Shown here in pieces: positions 5,076 to 26,586 of a DNA stretch of 26,652 bases. Numbering within the stretch: position 1 is the first letter of the stretch; every line of letters starts with the position of its first letter. Both the position numbers and the translations under genes were made by a program. Under the pieces are notes generated by a model, which saw only the letters and a program-made list of their open reading frames with translations, had not been told where the DNA came from and ran no database searches. The DNA is from an uncultured Eubacteriales bacterium (GTDB lineage Bacteria; Bacillota_A; Clostridia; Oscillospirales; Oscillospiraceae), in contig ONPY01000025.1 of assembly GCA_900319835.1 (NCBI GenBank), positions 1 through 26,652 of the forward strand, read 5' to 3'.

Positions 5076-6188
5076 ATGGAAAACATCAACGAGAACTTTG
5101 ACCTCCAGGCCTATGTGACAAAGGGCGTGGAGAACGTGGTGCGCGACGCGCTCAAGGCCACGGTGAAGGACCCCAGGGAGAGCGCCTTCATGCTGCGCTT
5201 TGCCGCGGCGAGCAAGGCCGCCTCCAAAAAGCGCCGGGAGGCCGAAGACGCGGGCGAGCATATTCCGCCCTTCCTGATCGCCAGCATCACCAGCCAGTGC
5301 AATCTCCATTGCGCGGGCTGCTATTCCCGCTGCAACAACGCCACCGTGGACGCCGCTCCCGTGGAGCAGCTGAGCGACGCGGAATGGCTGCGCATCTTTG
5401 AGGAGGCGGACGCGCTGGGCGTGAGCTTCATCCTCCTGGCGGGCGGTGAGCCCATGCTTCGGCGGGACATCATTGAGGCCGCCGGGAAAAAGCCCAACAT
5501 TCTCTTCCCCATCTTCACCAATGGCACCTTCATCGACACGCGCTACTTTGAGCTCTTTGACCGCTGCCGCAACCTGGTGCCCATTCTGAGCATCGAGGGT
5601 GAAAAGGAGCTCACCGATTTAAGGCGCGGCAAGGGCGTGTACGAGAGTCTGATCCGCAACATGGACGAGTTCAAGCGCCGCGGTCTGATCTTCGGCGCCT
5701 CCGTCACCGTGACGACCCAGAATCTCAGGGAGGTCTGCTCCGACGCCTTTTTGCAGAAGCTGTCCGACCGGGGCTGCAAGGCGGTCATCTTTGTGGAGTT
5801 TGTCCCCGTAAGCGATGAGAGCAAGGAGCTGGCGCCCGGGGACAAAGAGCGCGAAACCCTGCGTCAGGAGATCGCGCGGCTGCGCGAGGAGCATCCTGAG
5901 ATGGTCTACATCTCCTTCCCCGGCGACGAGAAGAGCTCCGGCGGCTGTGTGGCGGCCGGGCGCGGCTTCTTCCACATCAACTCCCACGGCGGGGCAGAGC
6001 CCTGCCCCTTCTCCCCCTACTCGGACGTGAACATCAAGGACACTTCCCTGCGCGAGGCGCTGCACTCGCCGCTCTTCACCGCGCTGCGAAGCGGGGACAT
6101 CCTGCTGGACGACCACGAGGGCGGCTGCGTGCTCTACGAAAAGCGCGCCCAGGTGGAGGCGATCCTGGCCGGTGCCGGGCAGGGATAA
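5076..6188 (+). CDS. Radical SAM protein with C-terminal auxiliary-cluster cysteines
   Basis: 370 residues. The radical SAM signature C-x3-C-x2-C is at Cys75, Cys79 and Cys82 (QCNLHCAGC), and the SAM-binding GGEP is at 123-126. A partial TIM barrel follows. The C-terminal third has further cysteines (Cys291, Cys310, Cys351) arranged like a SPASM/twitch auxiliary Fe-S domain, including an AEPCPFSPYSD segment. An N-terminal helical region (1-60) precedes the core. The start is supported by AAGGAG upstream. The reaction is not predictable: SPASM/twitch enzymes modify peptides, proteins or sugars. No small precursor peptide is evident next to it. Its position after epimerase and rpiR hints at a link to sugar metabolism, but it may be a passenger. 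Confidence 0.85.
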   Translation: MENINENFDLQAYVTKGVENVVRDALKATVKDPRESAFMLRFAAASKAASKKRREAEDAGEHIPPFLIASITSQCNLHCAGCYSRCNNATVDAAPVEQLSDAEWLRIFEEADALGVSFILLAGGEPMLRRDIIEAAGKKPNILFPIFTNGTFIDTRYFELFDRCRNLVPILSIEGEKELTDLRRGKGVYESLIRNMDEFKRRGLIFGASVTVTTQNLREVCSDAFLQKLSDRGCKAVIFVEFVPVSDESKELAPGDKERETLRQEIARLREEHPEMVYISFPGDEKSSGGCVAAGRGFFHINSHGGAEPCPFSPYSDVNIKDTSLREALHSPLFTALRSGDILLDDHEGGCVLYEKRAQVEAILAGAGQG

Positions 6189-7411: not shown

Positions 7412-7448
7412 AAGGGGCATCTTTGGATGCCCCTTGTCTGTCGTTTTT
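7412..7448 (+). terminator. Intercistronic hairpin between cbiM and cbiQ (attenuator-like terminator)
   Basis: AAGGGGCATC (7412-7421) pairs perfectly with GATGCCCCTT (7426-7435) around a TTTG loop. The run of five Ts starts 7 nt after the stem, not directly after it, so termination is probably partial. It lies inside an apparent operon and could lower cbiQ/cbiO expression relative to cbiM, or stabilise the cbiM message. Confidence 0.55.
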
Positions 7449-7467
7449 AAGCAAAGGATTTCCGCCC

Positions 7468-8271
7468 ATGAACAAGATGGAAAAGGCCCTGCATGAGCTG
7501 AGCGAGATGGACGACCTGGCGGCCCAGGACTCTCCCATCCACCGCCTGCATCCGGCAGCAAAGCTCCTTGCGACAATTGCATACATCCTCCTGGTGGTCT
7601 CTTTTGACAAGTACGACCTTGACGGGCTGTTCCCCATGCTGCTCTGGCCGGTGCTGCTGTTTCAGCTCAGCGGCGTGCCGGTGCGCACCTGCTTTTACAA
7701 GCTCAGGATCGTGCTGCCGCTGGTGATGGCCGTTGGCCTCTTCAACCCCTTCTTTGACAGAGCTCCGCTGCTGATGCTAGGTCCGCTGCGCGTCTCAGGA
7801 GGCGTCGTCTCCATGCTGACGCTGATGGGAAAAGGGCTGCTGTGTCTGATGGCCTCCTTCCTGCTGATGGCCACCACGCCCATTGACTGTCTCTGTGCCG
7901 CGCTCAGGCGGCTGCACATGCCGAAGATGATCGTGACGCTGCTGCTGCTGACCTACCGCTATGTGGGCGTTATGACCCAGGAGCTCGCCGTCATGACCGA
8001 CGCCTACCACCTGCGTGCGCCGGGACAGAAGGGCATCCACGTCTCCGCCTGGGGCTCCTTTCTGGGCCAGCTGCTTCTCCGGAGCATGGACCGGGCCCAG
8101 GAGCTCTACAGCAGCATGCTGCTGCGGGGCTATCACGAGCACTTCCACTACGCGGGTATTCCGCGCTTTTCCCCGCGCGACGGGCTTTACACCCTGGGAT
8201 GCACGGCGGTGTTCCTGCTGCTGCGCTTTGTGCCGCTGGCCCAGGCGGTGGGCAGTCTCTTTGTGAGGTGA
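7468..8271 (+). CDS. cbiQ: CbiQ/EcfT-type energy-coupling transmembrane protein
   Basis: 267 residues with hydrophobic segments at about 33-50, 53-68, 78-92, 105-125 and near the C-terminus. The two EcfT coupling-helix motifs are recognisable: AYHLRAPG in the cytoplasmic region, and MLLRGY about 40 residues later. In ECF transporters these Ala/Leu-Arg-Gly-type motifs dock on the ATPase. The ATG at 7468 has AAAGGA about 9 nt upstream. It is preceded by the hairpin after cbiM and overlaps the cbiO ribosome site at its 3' end. It couples ATP hydrolysis by CbiO to metal uptake through CbiM. Confidence 0.92.
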   Translation: MNKMEKALHELSEMDDLAAQDSPIHRLHPAAKLLATIAYILLVVSFDKYDLDGLFPMLLWPVLLFQLSGVPVRTCFYKLRIVLPLVMAVGLFNPFFDRAPLLMLGPLRVSGGVVSMLTLMGKGLLCLMASFLLMATTPIDCLCAALRRLHMPKMIVTLLLLTYRYVGVMTQELAVMTDAYHLRAPGQKGIHVSAWGSFLGQLLLRSMDRAQELYSSMLLRGYHEHFHYAGIPRFSPRDGLYTLGCTAVFLLLRFVPLAQAVGSLFVR

Positions 8272-8276
8272 CCAAG

Positions 8277-8999
8277 ATGATCGAATTTCAGAATGTGAGC
8301 TTCTCCTACGAAAGCGGCCGCCCGGTGCTCCGGGATCTCTCCTTTACCATCCGGGACGGGGAGTGCGTGGGGCTGATCGGCGCAAACGGCGCGGGCAAGT
8401 CCACGGTGATGAAGCTGCTGCTGGGGCTTTTGAGCGGCGAGGGGAAGATCCTTGTCGACAATGTGGAGGTTCGGAAGGACACGCTGCCCCAGATCCGGAA
8501 GAAGCTGGGCTTTGTGCTGCAGAACTCCGACAACCAGATGTTCATGCCCACGGTCTATGAGGACATGATCTTCGGCCCGCTCAACTATGGGCTGAGCCGG
8601 GAGGAGACGGACAAGCGGGTCGACGCGGTGCTGGATGCGCTCGGGCTGCAGGAGCTCAAGCACCGGCACAACCACCGCATCTCCGGCGGTGAAAAGCGCA
8701 TGGCGGCCATCGCCACCATCCTCGCCATGGAGCCGGAGGCCATGCTGATGGACGAGCCCACCGCGGCCCTCGATCCCTACAACCGCCGCATCGTCATCAA
8801 CGCCATCCGCTCTCTGCCGCAGACCAAGCTCATCACCTCCCACGATCTGGACATGATCCTGGACACCTGCGGCCGGGTCATCCTCCTGTCCGAGGGGCGC
8901 GTCGCGGCCGACGGTCCGGCGGAGGAGATTCTCCGCGACAGGGCGCTGCTGGAGAGCCACCGCATGGAGCTGCCCTTCTGCCTGGCCGGGAGATCGTAA
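8277..8999 (+). CDS. cbiO: CbiO-type ECF transporter ATP-binding protein
   Basis: 240-residue ABC ATPase. Walker A is GANGAGKST (35-43), the Q-loop glutamine is Gln82 in FVLQNSDNQMF, the signature motif is ISGGEKR (135-141), Walker B is AMLMDEPTAALDP (155-167) and the switch is His189 in TSHD. The QNxDNQ(M/L)F sequence after the Q-loop is characteristic of ECF-type ATPases. The start lies 5 bp after the cbiQ stop, and its GAGGTG ribosome site is in the end of cbiQ. It is a single ATPase gene, so the transporter probably uses a CbiO homodimer. It is the last gene of the operon. Confidence 0.95.
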   Translation: MIEFQNVSFSYESGRPVLRDLSFTIRDGECVGLIGANGAGKSTVMKLLLGLLSGEGKILVDNVEVRKDTLPQIRKKLGFVLQNSDNQMFMPTVYEDMIFGPLNYGLSREETDKRVDAVLDALGLQELKHRHNHRISGGEKRMAAIATILAMEPEAMLMDEPTAALDPYNRRIVINAIRSLPQTKLITSHDLDMILDTCGRVILLSEGRVAADGPAEEILRDRALLESHRMELPFCLAGRS

Positions 9000-9135: not shown

Positions 9136-9164
9136 AAGCGCCCGCTTTTGCGGGCGCTTTTTTC
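9136..9164 (+). terminator. Rho-independent terminator after cbiMQO and the repeat element
   Basis: AAGCGCCCGC (9136-9145) pairs with GCGGGCGCTT (9150-9159) around a TTTT loop. The T-run spans 9158-9163. This is a strong canonical terminator, separated from cbiO by the palindromic element. Confidence 0.9.
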
Positions 9165-9172
9165 TTCCCCTC

Positions 9173-9201
9173 TAGGCAAATCGGCGCAGGCGTGGTATAC
9201 T
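9173..9201 (+). promoter_or_regulatory. Possible promoter of the TIR-LRR gene
   Basis: TAGGCA (9173-9178) and TATACT (9196-9201) are spaced by 17 bp. A start near 9208 would leave a leader of only about 5 nt before the GTG at 9213, and the GAGGA ribosome site at 9202-9206 would not be transcribed. Either the gene is nearly leaderless from this promoter, or this -10 is not the real one. Confidence 0.35.
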
Positions 9202-9212
9202 GAGGAAAAATT

Positions 9213-10655
9213 GTGGGATGGGAGGAAGCAGTCACGGAAACGCTGGTTCCCTATGAGGGCGCGGAGCCCTATGTCTTCATCAGTTACGCCCACGCCGATG
9301 CGGAGGCGGTTCTGGCCGTCGCCGCGCGGCTGCAGAAAGCGGGCTTTCGCGTCTGGTACGACGCCGGCATCGAAGTCGGCAGCGAATGGCCGGAGTATAT
9401 CGCCGCCCACCTCAAGGGCGCAGCCGTGATGCTGGCCTTTCTCTCCAACGCCTATGTCCGCTCGGACAACTGCAGGGCGGAGATGCACTACGCGCTGACA
9501 AAAAAGATCCCCTCCGTCAACATCTTTCTGGAGCGGACCGACATGACCCCGGGGCTTGAGATGCAGCTTGGGCACCGCTTCGCCCTGATGAAATATGAGA
9601 TGAGCGAGGAGCGTTTCTGGGAAAAGCTCCTCGCCGCGCCGCCCCTTGTCTCGCTCCTGCCCGACGGCGGCGGAAAGCCCCCCTTCCGCCCTGCGGCGGA
9701 GACTGTCCGGAAGGCCCGGCGGCCACTCTGGAAACGGATTTTGACCTGGCTGCTGGTTCTGGCGCTGCTGGGCGGACTGACCGCCGTGGGCATCGTAGGC
9801 TGGTCCACCGGGCTTGCCCAGCGGATCTATATCCGGCAGAGCCTGCCCACGCCCGGCATTCTGCCGGGGACGACGGAGATCGTCTTTACCGACCCCGCGC
9901 TGGAAAAAGCCGCGCGGAGCTACTGCGGCAAGGCGGAGGGCAGCGTTCTGGTCTCGGATCTGACGGGGCTGACCGAGCTGCGCCTGGAGGCGGCGGAGGA
10001 TCTCTCCGATCTGGCTTTTTTCCCGGACCTGCGGCAGCTGACCCTGGCCGTGCCGGAGCTTAAGTCTCTGGCCACGCTGCCGGTCTGCTCGCTGGAAACG
10101 CTGCGGCTGGAGGGCTGTTCTGTCGCCGATCTCACGGGTGTTGGCAATCTGCCCCTGCTGCGGGAGTTGGAGACTGCAGACTGCCCTCTGCACTCTCTGG
10201 GGGATCTCAGCCACTGTATTCAGCTCAGACGGCTCGCGCTGGACGGCGCTGACGTGGCGGACTTTTCCCCGGTCAAGCCGCTGACAAAGCTGGCGGAGGC
10301 GGAGATCTCCAACTGCGGCATCAATGAGCTGCGGCCCCTGCTGAGGCTGAGCAGTCTGACCGACGTGCGCTTTGTCCACTGTGATCTGCGCGGCGACTTT
10401 TTCTATGCGTTTGACCGGGAAAAGCGCATTGTGAGTCTGGCGCTGGTGGACTGTGATCTCAACTCCACCGCCAACATGGAGGATTTCCGGGGGCTGACCA
10501 CCCTGACCCTGATCCGCAGCGGCGCGATCCTGGACTGGTCGGTGCTGGCAGAGCTCCCCGTTCTGCGCACGGTCACCGTGGACGAGAGCATGGCCCGGGT
10601 CGTGGGCGAAGGATTGAAGGGAAGCGACGTGGAACTGACTGTGACGGGAGGCTGA
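9213..10655 (+). CDS. TIR-domain protein with a transmembrane segment and C-terminal leucine-rich-repeat-like region
   Basis: 480 residues. An N-terminal TIR domain (about 17-150) starts with YVFISYAHAD (20-29), continues with GFRVWYDAGIEVGSEW (44-59), and has the SNAYVRSDNCRAE segment whose Glu90 occupies the catalytic position of TIR NADases. A KARRPLWKR patch precedes one membrane span (about 175-197). Residues 245-455 then hold irregular ~22-residue leucine-rich units (LTELRLE, LRQLTLA, LETLRLEGC, LRRLALDGA, LTDVRFVHC, LTTLTLIRS). Positive charges before the span predict the TIR inside and the LRR outside. The start is GTG with GAGGA 6 nt upstream; no in-frame ATG precedes the TIR core. 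The gene has its own terminator-isolated context and is followed 6 bp later by a dehydrogenase. NADase signalling or defence is inferred from TIR biology and not shown here. Confidence 0.85.
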   Translation: MGWEEAVTETLVPYEGAEPYVFISYAHADAEAVLAVAARLQKAGFRVWYDAGIEVGSEWPEYIAAHLKGAAVMLAFLSNAYVRSDNCRAEMHYALTKKIPSVNIFLERTDMTPGLEMQLGHRFALMKYEMSEERFWEKLLAAPPLVSLLPDGGGKPPFRPAAETVRKARRPLWKRILTWLLVLALLGGLTAVGIVGWSTGLAQRIYIRQSLPTPGILPGTTEIVFTDPALEKAARSYCGKAEGSVLVSDLTGLTELRLEAAEDLSDLAFFPDLRQLTLAVPELKSLATLPVCSLETLRLEGCSVADLTGVGNLPLLRELETADCPLHSLGDLSHCIQLRRLALDGADVADFSPVKPLTKLAEAEISNCGINELRPLLRLSSLTDVRFVHCDLRGDFFYAFDREKRIVSLALVDCDLNSTANMEDFRGLTTLTLIRSGAILDWSVLAELPVLRTVTVDESMARVVGEGLKGSDVELTVTGG

Positions 10656-10661
10656 ACAACC

Positions 10662-11621
10662 ATGAAAATCGTGATTCTAGACGGCTATACGGAAAACCCC
10701 GGCGATCTGAGCTGGGACAATCTCGGCGCTTTTGGGGAAGTGACGGTCTATGACCGCACACCCTACGAGACGGCGGAGATCATCCGGCGCATCTCAGACG
10801 CTGAAATCGTCATTACCAACAAGACGCCCCTGGGCCGCGAGGTGCTGGACGCCTGCCCCTCGATCCGCTTCATCGCGGTGCTGGCCACGGGCTACAACGT
10901 GGTGGATGTGAAGGCCGCCCGGGATAAGGGTATCCCCGTCTCCAACGTCCCGGCCTACGGAACGGCCTCGGTGGCCCAGTACGCCATCGCCCTGCTGCTG
11001 GAGATCACCTCCCGGGTGGCCCACCACTCCGAGGCGGTGCACGCCGGCCGCTGGGAACACGCGCAGGACTGGACCTTCTGGGATTACCCGCTCATTGAGC
11101 TTGCGGGCAAAACCATGGGCATCGTGGGCTTTGGCCGCATCGGCCAGACCACGGGCAGGATCGCCAAAGCCCTGGGCATGACGGTGCTGGCCTCCGGCAG
11201 CCGGGAGACCGAGGCGGGCCGCGCCATCGCGGAGTATGTGGATCTGGATACGCTCTACGCCCGCGCGGACGTCATCGCCCTGCACTGTCCCCTCTTCCCG
11301 GAGACGAAAAACATGATCAACCGGGAGAGCATCGCCAAGATGAAGGACGGCGTCATCCTCATCAACAACAGCCGCGGCGGCCTGATCGTGGAGCAGGACC
11401 TGGCCGACGCGCTCAATTCCGGCAAGGTGCTGGCCGCCGGGGTGGATGTGGTCTCCACCGAGCCCATCCGGGGCGACAACCCCCTGCTCACGGCGAAAAA
11501 CTGCTTTATTACCCCGCACATCTCCTGGGCGCCGAAGGAGGCGCGCCAGCGGATTTTGGACTGCACGGAGGAAAACCTGCGCGGCTTTCTGGCGGGCAGC
11601 CCCGTCAACGTGGTCAACTGA
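10662..11621 (+). CDS. D-isomer-specific 2-hydroxyacid dehydrogenase (glycerate dehydrogenase/hydroxypyruvate reductase-like)
   Basis: 319 residues, the typical length for the family. The nucleotide-binding Rossmann motif is GFGRIG (156-161). The catalytic triad is Arg238 (NNSRGG), Glu267 (STEP) and His286 (TPHISW). The ATGYNVVDVKAARDKGIPVSN segment (75-95) and the GTASVAQYAIALLLE helix resemble glycerate dehydrogenases more than D-lactate dehydrogenases, so reduction of hydroxypyruvate/glyoxylate-type substrates is the best guess. The ATG has GGGAGG 10 nt upstream, inside the last codons of the TIR gene. The 6-bp gap to the TIR gene implies co-transcription. The 68-bp gap to malQ shows no convincing terminator. 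Confidence 0.92.
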   Translation: MKIVILDGYTENPGDLSWDNLGAFGEVTVYDRTPYETAEIIRRISDAEIVITNKTPLGREVLDACPSIRFIAVLATGYNVVDVKAARDKGIPVSNVPAYGTASVAQYAIALLLEITSRVAHHSEAVHAGRWEHAQDWTFWDYPLIELAGKTMGIVGFGRIGQTTGRIAKALGMTVLASGSRETEAGRAIAEYVDLDTLYARADVIALHCPLFPETKNMINRESIAKMKDGVILINNSRGGLIVEQDLADALNSGKVLAAGVDVVSTEPIRGDNPLLTAKNCFITPHISWAPKEARQRILDCTEENLRGFLAGSPVNVVN

Positions 11622-11689: not shown

Positions 11690-13168
11690 ATGCAGCGAAG
11701 CAGCGGCGTTTTGATGCCCCTGAGTTCTCTCCCCTCCCCCTACGGCATCGGCAGTATGGGGAAGGATGCCTACCGTTTTGTGGATTTTCTGAAGGCGGGC
11801 GGCCAGACCTACTGGCAGCTTTTGCCCCTGTGCCCCACCGGCGCCGGGGACAGCCCCTATTCCTCCTTCTCCACCTTTGCCGGCAACCCCTATTTCATTG
11901 ACCTGGACACCCTGATCCGGGAACGGCTGCTGAAAAAGGCCGAGGTGGAGGCCATCGACTGGGGCAGGAACGCGGAAGCTGTGGACTACAGCAAGCTCTA
12001 CGCGGGGCGTGCGCCTCTTCTCCGCAAGGCCTTCGCCCGCGGCCGGGAGCGCTTTGCCGGGGAGCTTGGCGCCTTCCGAAAAGAGAACGCCTGGGTGGAG
12101 ACCTACGGGCTTTACATGGCTCTCAAGCAGCATTTTGATCAGCGCCCCTGGACCGAGTGGCCGGACGAGGCCATCCGCATGCACCGGCCCGACGCCGTGC
12201 GCGCATGGCGCGAGGAGCTCAAAGACGAGATGGACTACCACATCTTTGTGCAGTTTCTCTTCTTCCGCCAGTGGGACAAGCTGAAAGAGTACGCGCATAA
12301 AAAGGGCGTCTCCTTCATCGGGGATATCCCCATCTATGTGGCGCTGGACTCGGCCGACGTGTGGAGCGAGCCGCACTACTTCCAGCTGGATTCCGAGAAT
12401 GTGCCCAAGGCCGTGGCGGGCGTACCCCCTGACCCCTTTACGGCAGACGGTCAGCTCTGGGGCAACCCCCTCTACGACTGGGACGCCATGGCCAAGGACG
12501 GCTTCGGCTGGTGGATCCGCCGCATCGAGGGCGCCAAGAAGCTCTACGACATGATCCGTATCGACCACTTCCGCGGCTTTGAGAGCTACTGGTCCGTGCC
12601 CTACGGAGAGGCCACCGCGAAAAACGGCGAGTGGATGCCCGGCCCCGGCATCAAGCTGGTGGGCATGCTGACGCAGTGGTTCCACGATCTGGACTTTATC
12701 GCCGAGGATCTGGGCTATGTGACGCCCGGCGTCAAGAAGCTGGTGGAGGACTCCGGCCTGCCCGGCATGAAGATTTTGCAGTTTGCCTTCGACGCCCACG
12801 GGGATTCCGACTACCTGCCCCACTGCTGCCCCTACAACAGCGTCTGCTACATCGGCACCCACGACAACGACACCGTCATGGGCTGGCTGAAAAAGACCCG
12901 CAAGGTCGACCGGGAGTTTGCCTCCCGCTACATGCACATCACCGACGACGAGGGCTGGTGCTGGGGCATGATCCGCGCGGGCATGGCCTGTGCTGCAGAC
13001 CTCTTTGTGGTGCAGATGCAGGATCTGCTGGAGCTGGGCGGCTGGGCCCGGACCAACACCCCCGGCGTCCCCACCGGCAACTGGCGCTGGCGTATGAAGG
13101 AAGGCGCCGCGGACAAGGAGCTGGCCCAGAAGCTCAAGCTCTACACCAAGACCTTCCGCAGATGCTGA
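11690..13168 (+). CDS. malQ: 4-alpha-glucanotransferase (amylomaltase, GH77)
   Basis: 492 residues, full length for bacterial GH77. The N-terminus has the family start SGVLMPLSSLPSPYGIGSMG (5-24). The three catalytic carboxylates are in place: nucleophile Asp292 in IRIDHFRG, acid/base Glu339 in IAEDLGYV, and Asp392 in GTHDNDT; this spacing matches Thermus amylomaltase. The 250s-loop sequence VAGVPPDPFTADGQLWGNP is present. The enzyme transfers 4-alpha-glucan chains and releases glucose during maltodextrin or glycogen breakdown in the cytoplasm. No glycogen phosphorylase or maltose transporter is in the window, so the gene is isolated from its pathway. The ATG at 11690 has an AGAAAAGAG-type ribosome site. 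Confidence 0.96.
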   Translation: MQRSSGVLMPLSSLPSPYGIGSMGKDAYRFVDFLKAGGQTYWQLLPLCPTGAGDSPYSSFSTFAGNPYFIDLDTLIRERLLKKAEVEAIDWGRNAEAVDYSKLYAGRAPLLRKAFARGRERFAGELGAFRKENAWVETYGLYMALKQHFDQRPWTEWPDEAIRMHRPDAVRAWREELKDEMDYHIFVQFLFFRQWDKLKEYAHKKGVSFIGDIPIYVALDSADVWSEPHYFQLDSENVPKAVAGVPPDPFTADGQLWGNPLYDWDAMAKDGFGWWIRRIEGAKKLYDMIRIDHFRGFESYWSVPYGEATAKNGEWMPGPGIKLVGMLTQWFHDLDFIAEDLGYVTPGVKKLVEDSGLPGMKILQFAFDAHGDSDYLPHCCPYNSVCYIGTHDNDTVMGWLKKTRKVDREFASRYMHITDDEGWCWGMIRAGMACAADLFVVQMQDLLELGGWARTNTPGVPTGNWRWRMKEGAADKELAQKLKLYTKTFRRC

Positions 13169-25625: not shown

Positions 25626-25698
25626 TGTGCACAGCAGCTTGAATGGGTCGCAGGAAAGGGGGGCATCACAAAACGCCGTTCTTGTTTCTTTGCCTGTA

Positions 25699-26586
25699 TC
25701 AGTCGACGCGCTCGTCGCCCCAGAAGAAGAGGGCCACGGTGCCGGGGCCCGTGTGGGCGCCGATGAGGCCGCCGATGTTGTTGATGAGTACCTTGCCGCT
25801 CAGCTTGGGGAACTTCTCCTCCACCAGCGCGGCCACAGCCTCCGCGTCCTCGCGGCAGGCGGACATGGAGATGAAGCACTTGCCGCTGTAGTCGGTGCCG
25901 TTTTCCGCGTGCTCCACCATGCGCGCCACGATCTCCCGGATGACGTTTTTCTTGGTGCGGATCTTGCTGCGGGGGATGAGCCGGCCCAGGTTGTCCATGT
26001 TCAGCAGCGGGCAGATCTGCAGCACGCCGCCGAAGAAAGCCGCGGTCTTGGAGATGCGGCCGCCGCGGACGTAGCTGGACAGGTCCGTGGAGAAGAACCA
26101 GTGGTGCAGCTTGAGGCGGTTTTCCGTCACCCAGTCGGCAAGCTCTTTGGCGCTCATGCCGTTGTCGCGCATGGCGGCGGCGGTATCGAGGATCAGGCCG
26201 TAGCCGGAGGAGGCGCCCAGCGAGTCGACGACGTAGATCTCCCTCTCGGGGAAGCGCTCCTTGACGATCAGAGCGGCGTTGGCCGCGGAGCCGTAGGTGC
26301 CTGAAATGCCGGAGGAGAGGGAGACATGGACGATATCCAGCCCCTGTTCGCAGAAGGCGCTGAAGTAATCCACATACTCGCCGATGCTGATCTGCGAGGT
26401 GGAGGTGGATGCGCCCTTGGCCATGCGGGCGTACATCTCGTCGGCGGGCATGGACTGGCCCAGGTCATCCGGGTAGACGACGCCGTCGAGGGTGAAGTGC
26501 ATGCAGATGTACTTGACATCGATGCGCTCAAAGTGCTCCTTGCTGAGGTCGGCCGAGGAGCAGCCGGATAGAACATAAGAAGCCAT
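25699..26586 (-). CDS. DegV-family fatty-acid-binding protein (FakB-like), second paralogue
   Basis: 295 residues. Family motifs are STSQIS (61-66, the lipid-carboxylate-binding TSQxS motif), SSGISGTYGSA (92-102), a DSLGASSGYG segment, FSTDLSSYVRGGRISKTAAFFGGVLQICPLL (written as FSTDLSSYVRGGR followed by the ISKTAA helix), and GGLIGAHTGPGTVALFF at the C-terminus. It binds a fatty acid for the FakA kinase system, as presumed for the first paralogue, from which it differs substantially, including a canonical TSQ where the other has TSM. The start has AAAGGAAAA upstream on the minus strand and its own promoter at 26622-26650. It is monocistronic and convergent with the his operon. Confidence 0.93.
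   Translation of the reverse strand: MASYVLSGCSSADLSKEHFERIDVKYICMHFTLDGVVYPDDLGQSMPADEMYARMAKGASTSTSQISIGEYVDYFSAFCEQGLDIVHVSLSSGISGTYGSAANAALIVKERFPEREIYVVDSLGASSGYGLILDTAAAMRDNGMSAKELADWVTENRLKLHHWFFSTDLSSYVRGGRISKTAAFFGGVLQICPLLNMDNLGRLIPRSKIRTKKNVIREIVARMVEHAENGTDYSGKCFISMSACREDAEAVAALVEEKFPKLSGKVLINNIGGLIGAHTGPGTVALFFWGDERVD

Follow-up and report, generated by a model that had tools for sequence, protein, structure and literature searches.

What might a bacterium do with a single protein that seems to carry the parts of an animal Toll-like receptor in the reverse order? The question is raised by the gene at 9213–10655 of contig ONPY01000025.1 (assembly GCA_900319835.1), a stretch of 26,652 nucleotides from an uncultured Eubacteriales bacterium of the Oscillospiraceae, referred to here as the window. 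Its product appears to be a one-gene membrane receptor in which a TIR domain is followed by a transmembrane (TM) helix and by leucine-rich repeats (LRR). We ask how well this architecture is supported, whether the TIR domain is likely to be an enzyme, what the family and its gene setting look like, and what the protein might be for.

Domain order and membrane topology

Among 7998 best-sharing candidates from a collection of 5.8 billion proteins, 347 proved to be relatives of the window protein (the query) at E ≤ 1e-3. The best 120 of the 347 were listed, and the family alignment used below consists of 120 full-length proteins, query included. The TIR-TM-LRR order, already assigned in a sequence-only reading of the window, is borne out by prediction. 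The Pfam TIR_2 match scores 80 bits against a cut-off of 28, and structure models of the open reading frame (ORF) are confident for the TIR domain, the membrane helix and an internalin/SDS22-like LRR; the C-terminal half, earlier described as LRR-like, is thus modelled as such with confidence. The positions of these elements and of the adjoining features are collected in Table 1.

Table 1. Positions of the gene, its predicted parts and adjoining features in the window
Feature	Position	Strand	Remarks
TIR-TM-LRR gene	9213..10655	+	480 amino acids; GTG start, start uncertain
TIR domain, predicted cytoplasmic	9252..9650	+	residues 14-146
Glu90 codon	9480..9482	+	shares column with AbTir Glu208 and Cat1 Glu
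Asn86 codon, four before Glu90	9468..9470	+	Trp in AbTir, Cat1 and TLR15
Single transmembrane helix, predicted N-in/C-out	9726..9809	+	residues 172-199
Internalin-like N-terminal LRR cap	9858..9962	+	residues 216-250, contains FTDPALEKAA
LRR solenoid	9963..10652	+	11 strands; repeats mostly 20-24 residues
LRR solenoid Cys at ladder positions	residues 302, 324, 368, 390, 414
C-terminal LRR patch	10380..10550	+	residues 390-446; conservation nearly equals that of TIR
CbiO-type energy-coupling factor transporter ATPase	8199..8999	+	upstream neighbour
Terminator-like hairpin between cbiO and the TIR-LRR gene	9143..9156	+	weak: 4 found in region, 2.9 expected
Promoter-like site TAGGCA-17-TATACT, TG before second hexamer	9173..9201	+	weak: 1 found, 0.6 expected by chance
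D-2-hydroxyacid dehydrogenase (HADH)	10662..11621	+	downstream neighbour; local synteny, not obligate partner
MalQ 4-alpha-glucanotransferase	11690..13168	+	shared local synteny

The protein is predicted to cross the membrane once, the TIR domain being inside the cell and the LRR outside it. Lys and Arg were counted in the 15 residues on each side of the helix for 135 family proteins between 440 and 600 amino acids long (query included). The mean is 7.0 before the helix versus 2.4 after it, the count before exceeds the count after in 135 of 135 proteins, and the mean hydropathy of the helix is at least 2.1 in all of them. This positive-inside pattern would place the TIR domain in the cytoplasm and the LRR beyond the membrane, as the sequence-only reading had it. 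The same charge bias is present in 33 of 42 other helix-bearing loci, several of them multi-span. Since the LRR cap begins about 17 residues past the helix, the LRR should lie near the membrane. Of the "surface sensor" proposed earlier, the extracytoplasmic placement stands as a prediction, whereas "surface" would be better replaced by "membrane-proximal, extracytoplasmic".

The LRR, in which an N-cap and a solenoid are present, matches internalins by sequence and by structure, including InlJ (3bz5). It is also rich in cysteine (a mean of 7.3 per family protein), with ladder positions 390 and 414 occupied in all 120 aligned proteins, 324 in 114, 302 in 106 and 368 in 46. The cysteines, together with structural matches whose fold class also takes in cytoplasmic LRR proteins, and with the absence of a predicted TM helix from 6 of 7 BspA-LRR and 3 of 4 Sel1 proteins of the wider TIR superfamily, might suggest a peripheral or re-entrant helix, with both domains in the cytoplasm. 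The hydropathy and the one-sided charge of the helix argue otherwise. InlJ, a Listeria surface internalin, has Cys-containing LRRs that are described with a cysteine ladder (PMC7291126, in the part available), so that cysteine alone is no argument for an inside location; nor are nearby secreted proteins Cys-free, as judged with a crude caller on 18 and 31 proteins. Cysteine content as proof of an inside LRR is therefore not upheld, and we give a wholly cytoplasmic protein only a slight probability.

The catalytic position of the TIR domain

The TIR fold is seen both in the structure model and in the structural matches, which include TLR15 and, at the top and tied with SPARTA, the TIR of Hydra TRR-2, an animal Toll-related protein. 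By alignment and structure comparison, Glu90 is located on helix C in the column of the TLR15 Glu as well as those of AbTir and Cat1. It is the same in all 120 aligned family proteins and in all 79 TIR heads of the wider set described in the next section. The earlier assignment of Glu90 to the position that is catalytic in enzymes cleaving nicotinamide adenine dinucleotide (NAD) is thereby strengthened.

The residue four positions before the glutamate bears on the product. It is Asn in 118 and Ser in 2 of the 120 family proteins, and Asn in 74 of the 79 wider heads; the Trp that marks TIRs producing cyclic ADP-ribose is thus lacking here. AbTir needs the Trp four before Glu208 to make its cyclic product, and this Trp is strongly conserved among TIRs with a cyclic product, although TcpC has it and yet makes linear ADP-ribose (PMC11374754, in excerpt). 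SpbK, with Tyr188 four before Glu192, is an NADase (PMC12847820, in excerpt), so NAD cleavage in itself does not depend on the Trp. Given Asn86 in place of the AbTir Trp, an active enzyme should mainly yield linear rather than cyclic ADP-ribose, and the cyclic ADP-ribose signal that had been offered as one outcome becomes less likely.

When 44 TIR heads were compared with PADLOC profiles at 1e-5, matches were found to PDC-S66 (39/44), the Aga TIR (35), SAVED-TIR (28) and one ThsB model (26). We take these matches to defence TIRs to indicate domain kinship, not function.

Several points temper the case for an enzymatic role. Conservation of the glutamate is no proof of NADase activity; this glutamate is frequent in some Toll-like receptor groups without reported activity (PMC7075850, in the part available). 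In a screen of 152 TIRs, 28 were active and the majority inactive, with a warning by the authors about false negatives (PMC9092222, in excerpt). The TIR domain might then be a non-catalytic scaffold, with an outside ligand recruiting other TIR proteins of that cell through TIR-TIR contacts, as in animal Toll-like receptors. The screen, the Asn in place of Trp and the structural match to Hydra TRR-2 all suit such a role, and so do the one to seven TIR_2 matches per genome in the 15 genomes searched. Four of these 15 (G001, G002, G012 and G014; metagenome-assembled and possibly incomplete) have a single TIR_2 match, so that no such partner was found in them, and the invariance of Glu90 speaks against a scaffold. 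On balance, we consider a scaffolding TIR rather unlikely, while conceding it an appreciable chance.

The family, its TIR head and its gene setting

This is a real protein family, mostly in one genus-level group of gut and rumen Clostridia. In the genus-level group of genome G006, 39 of 101 genomes match at 1e-30 and 16 of 101 carry a full-length gene (E < 1e-200); in a 17th carrier, G606, the gene is split in half between two contigs. The figure of 16/101 is not an unbiased rate because 13 genomes known beforehand to be carriers (G001–G013) are included, and absences are uncertain since many of the genomes are metagenome-assembled genomes. At the family level, 18 of 200 sampled genomes match at 1e-20 and five have a full-length match, three of those five being more distant; at the class level, 9 of 391 match at 1e-30, with a full-length match in G006 alone. 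The locus records name Ruminococcaceae, Oscillospiraceae, Clostridia or Clostridiales, and many come from the ruminant gut. TIR-TM-LRR proteins are also present in Zoogloeaceae and Desulfovibrio records (L029, L033 and L079), and in the TIR tree these lie far from the Firmicutes proteins.

Carriage by mobile elements was considered and rejected: no full-length match was found in phages, plasmids or IMG/VR, the last scanned with two peptide patterns only. That search returned one TIR-only match, in phage record MT836178 (39% identity over 23% of the query), and LRR matches from Listeria. The ectodomain without a TIR domain gave 21 matches of limited length, 17 of them on contigs shorter than 5 kb, and we read these as pieces of the same family.

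The TIR domain is the most conserved part of the 120-protein alignment. Across loci L001–L021, identity to the query is 58–77% for the TIR domain, 38–62% for the sensor LRR and 49–74% for the C-terminal patch. Crude ratios of nonsynonymous to synonymous substitution (dN/dS, Nei-Gojobori, eight pairs, some with saturated dS) are 0.014–0.20 for the TIR domain in the seven pairs giving a ratio, 0.09–0.40 for the sensor LRR and 0–0.24 for the patch. The ratio exceeds 1, the sign of positive selection, in none of the eight pairs. The gene is under purifying selection, and in six of the seven pairs the sensor LRR is less constrained than the TIR domain; the pair L001/L002 is reversed. The conserved patch (CDLRGxFF...) is where a functional surface would most probably lie.

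These data bear on the proposal that the protein is an adhesin, its LRR binding host mucin, plant fibre or other bacteria and its TIR serving as a cytoplasmic anchor or minor signaller. The ruminant gut origin and the likeness to Listeria internalins, especially InlJ, in the capped LRR fold and the ladder cysteines are what such a proposal would lead one to expect. In contrast to those internalins, the LRR is joined to a TIR domain, which forms the N-terminus, and to a membrane helix; by eye, the translation contains no signal peptide, no LPXTG anchor and no long stalk. With the LRR close behind the helix, and the TIR rather than the LRR most conserved, an adhesin is quite improbable.

The TIR-TM-LRR protein is not a one-off. 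The architecture recurs among homologues and belongs to a modular family in which TIR heads carry many different C-termini. A profile search of genome contigs gave 295 relatives, of which 79 loci were kept and 20 of these scanned with Pfam. In the scanned set the same TIR head precedes a long LRR (L029, L034), PepSY (L025, 2831–3679; L027, 8917–9840), DUF6273 (L037, L073), Sel1 (L066, L067) or BspA-LRR (L035, L057). PepSY and X25-like domains usually lie outside the membrane, in keeping with an outer sensor after the helix. Side by side with these are TIR-TM proteins with look-alike C-termini (L051, L054, L059, L060 and L065; no Pfam name in L051 and L054, which were scanned), and four in which hydropathy predicts several membrane spans after the same head (L040, L058, L062 and L075; no Pfam name for the multi-span part in L040 and L058, the two scanned). 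In L042 (1170–2927) the C-terminus of a TIR-TM protein weakly matches pullulanase X25 and SusF-SusE, below the cut-off, and is perhaps that of a starch-sensing TIR.

A tree of 79 TIR heads was built from 78 loci and the query, with L056 left out as its TIR start is missing; L001–L021 and L024 were assigned to the short TM-LRR family by hand, and six incomplete rows were left unlabelled. It contains 17 changes of C-terminal class, versus a mean of 42.4 when the labels are shuffled (as low in 0 of 200 shuffles), so the classes cluster on the tree. The PepSY rows sit inside the 29-row short TM-LRR clade (99*), beside L014 with a support of 83, an apparent case of ectodomain exchange. Heads without a TM helix (10 of 69 counted) are largely apart from those with one, at 4 changes versus a mean of 9.5 and a lowest value of 6 in 200 shuffles. 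The tree has modest support (20 of 74 inner branches starred) and some long branches. Taken together, the sensors seem to have been swapped within a modular family.

The neighbours of the gene in the window are a CbiMQO transporter upstream and HADH, MalQ, DegV, GH3 and his genes downstream; an Rfam scan gave no match over the gathering score. Among loci L001–L009, a divergent ROK-like gene adjoins the TIR gene in L001–L004, L006 and L009 (in two pieces), and HADH-MalQ lie downstream of it in L006–L009, as in the window; L005 has neither. The order is thus ROK-like/TIR-LRR/HADH/MalQ in L006 and L009. In L108 (genome G675) and L111 (genome G664) it is ROK-like/HADH/MalQ without the TIR-LRR gene. 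The gap between the ROK-like and HADH genes is about 240 bases in L108 and about 140 in L111, which leaves no room for a TIR gene, and neither genome is among the 39 with a family match. We read this as one gene gained or lost at one site.

No constant neighbour gene was found among the family loci examined. Of 10 neighbours scanned at nine loci of more distant members, four had no Pfam match; the neighbours of such members include genes for RecA, an ArgZ-like protein, an FMN dehydrogenase and a solute-binding protein. The absence of partner genes, which had been remarked on before, thus extends from the window to the family. Two candidate operon partners were rejected. Seven of 17 genomes (G001–G004, G013, G117 and G168) lack HADH at 1e-40, and G012 and G094 have only a weak match to it; MalQ is present in all 17 but located elsewhere in several. 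HADH occurs in 46 of the 101 genus-level genomes. In 30 HADH loci, the TIR gene lies upstream in four (L105, L106, L107 and L109), HADH-MalQ stand without it in the two described above, and the remaining 24 show no TIR-LRR gene and no MalQ within about 1.5 kb on each side.

A catalytic receptor with a housekeeping role, sensing nutrient or envelope state and tuning NAD or ADP-ribose with no part in defence, would suit the metabolic neighbours, the synteny with HADH and MalQ, the weak promoter-like site of its own and the purifying selection. That synteny is not obligate, as the genomes without an HADH match attest, and both presence or absence at one site and a patchy distribution within the genus-level group speak against this role, which we regard as unlikely.

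Three further observations concern the window. The ORF at 5076–6188 (+) encodes a radical SAM/SPASM-type protein (PADLOC pVip, 2.2e-12; NCBIfam viperin, 40 bits against a cut-off of 180). The CbiQ (7423–8271) and CbiO (8199–8999) ORFs have 73 bases in common, and the start of one of them was therefore probably called too far upstream. The ORF at 25627–26304 (+) has no Pfam or NCBIfam match, and its 62% relative in L004 faces a 295-residue DegV-like ORF; the 295-residue ORF at 25699–26586 (-) is therefore probably the real gene.

Proposed mechanism and known systems

Overall, the sequence-only interpretation is supported by prediction for order, topology, glutamate and lack of a conserved partner, and is amended in four respects: membership of a modular family, a membrane-proximal rather than surface location, the need of TIR systems for partners (taken up below) and the now less likely cyclic product. 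We tentatively favour, at somewhat less than an even chance, a stand-alone single-pass receptor. The LRR just outside the membrane would bind a ligand, which could be a phage or rival protein, an envelope fragment or a stress product. Binding would cluster the receptors, and their cytoplasmic TIR domains would assemble as in other TIR NADases and split NAD into nicotinamide and ADP-ribose, the latter mainly in linear form. The cell would then arrest or die and so protect its kin, the most likely threat being phage or a competitor. The domains, topology, modularity and single-gene site are computed; the ligand, NAD cleavage and the defence outcome we infer.

It is tempting to extend this proposal to gut Firmicutes: a family of TIR receptors, each encoded by one gene, crossing the membrane once and carrying an interchangeable sensor beyond it (LRR, PepSY, DUF6273 and others), may, on an outside cue, deplete NAD without an adaptor, most likely against phage or rivals, with TIR-TM-LRR as one branch. 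This wider scheme is possible, though we would sooner expect it to fail than to hold.

Like animal Toll-like receptors, the protein is predicted to have an LRR outside, one helix and a TIR domain inside, and its TIR fold matches those of TLR15 and Hydra TRR-2. The animal order is LRR-TM-TIR, whereas here it is TIR-TM-LRR with an LRR of internalin/SDS22 type; there is no evidence that the two architectures share a descent. Because the domain order differs, the protein is an analogue of Toll-like receptors, not a member of their family.

AbTir, Cat1, the SPARTA TIR and SpbK share the TIR fold and the position of the Glu. They are soluble and sense inside the cell. The window protein differs from them in its predicted membrane helix and outer LRR and, from AbTir and Cat1, in having Asn where they have Trp. 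Among the 30 window ORFs scanned there is no match to a ThsA-type effector as in Thoeris, the neighbours being CbiMQO, HADH and MalQ; their Pfam matches include no APAZ or short Argonaute as in SPARTA, and no STING, SAVED or cyclase as in TIR-STING or CBASS TIR systems. The earlier statement that known TIR systems need partner genes is not general: SpbK is a TIR defence protein acting outside a multi-gene system (PMC12847820, in excerpt). The window protein resembles it in being encoded by a single gene with no partner.

No bacterial TIR-TM-LRR receptor was found among the matches listed from the open-licence literature searched, and the terms "TIR-TM-LRR" and "TIR-LRR protein" are absent from the 15 papers listed of 123 matched in one search; nor does such a protein appear in the available parts of PMC7075850, PMC13142454, PMC8195603 and PMC8866957. 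The sequences are not new, since public databases already name them "TIR domain-containing protein". The architecture, the modularity and the single-gene empty site appear to be undescribed in the literature searched.

To our knowledge, the bacterial TIR immunity described so far senses inside the cell. With a modular family and ready-made empty sites, the idea of an outward-looking TIR receptor is directly testable. If it is true, bacteria would have arrived at their own parallel to Toll-like receptors by another arrangement of domains, and TIR suicide modules could respond to more kinds of threat.
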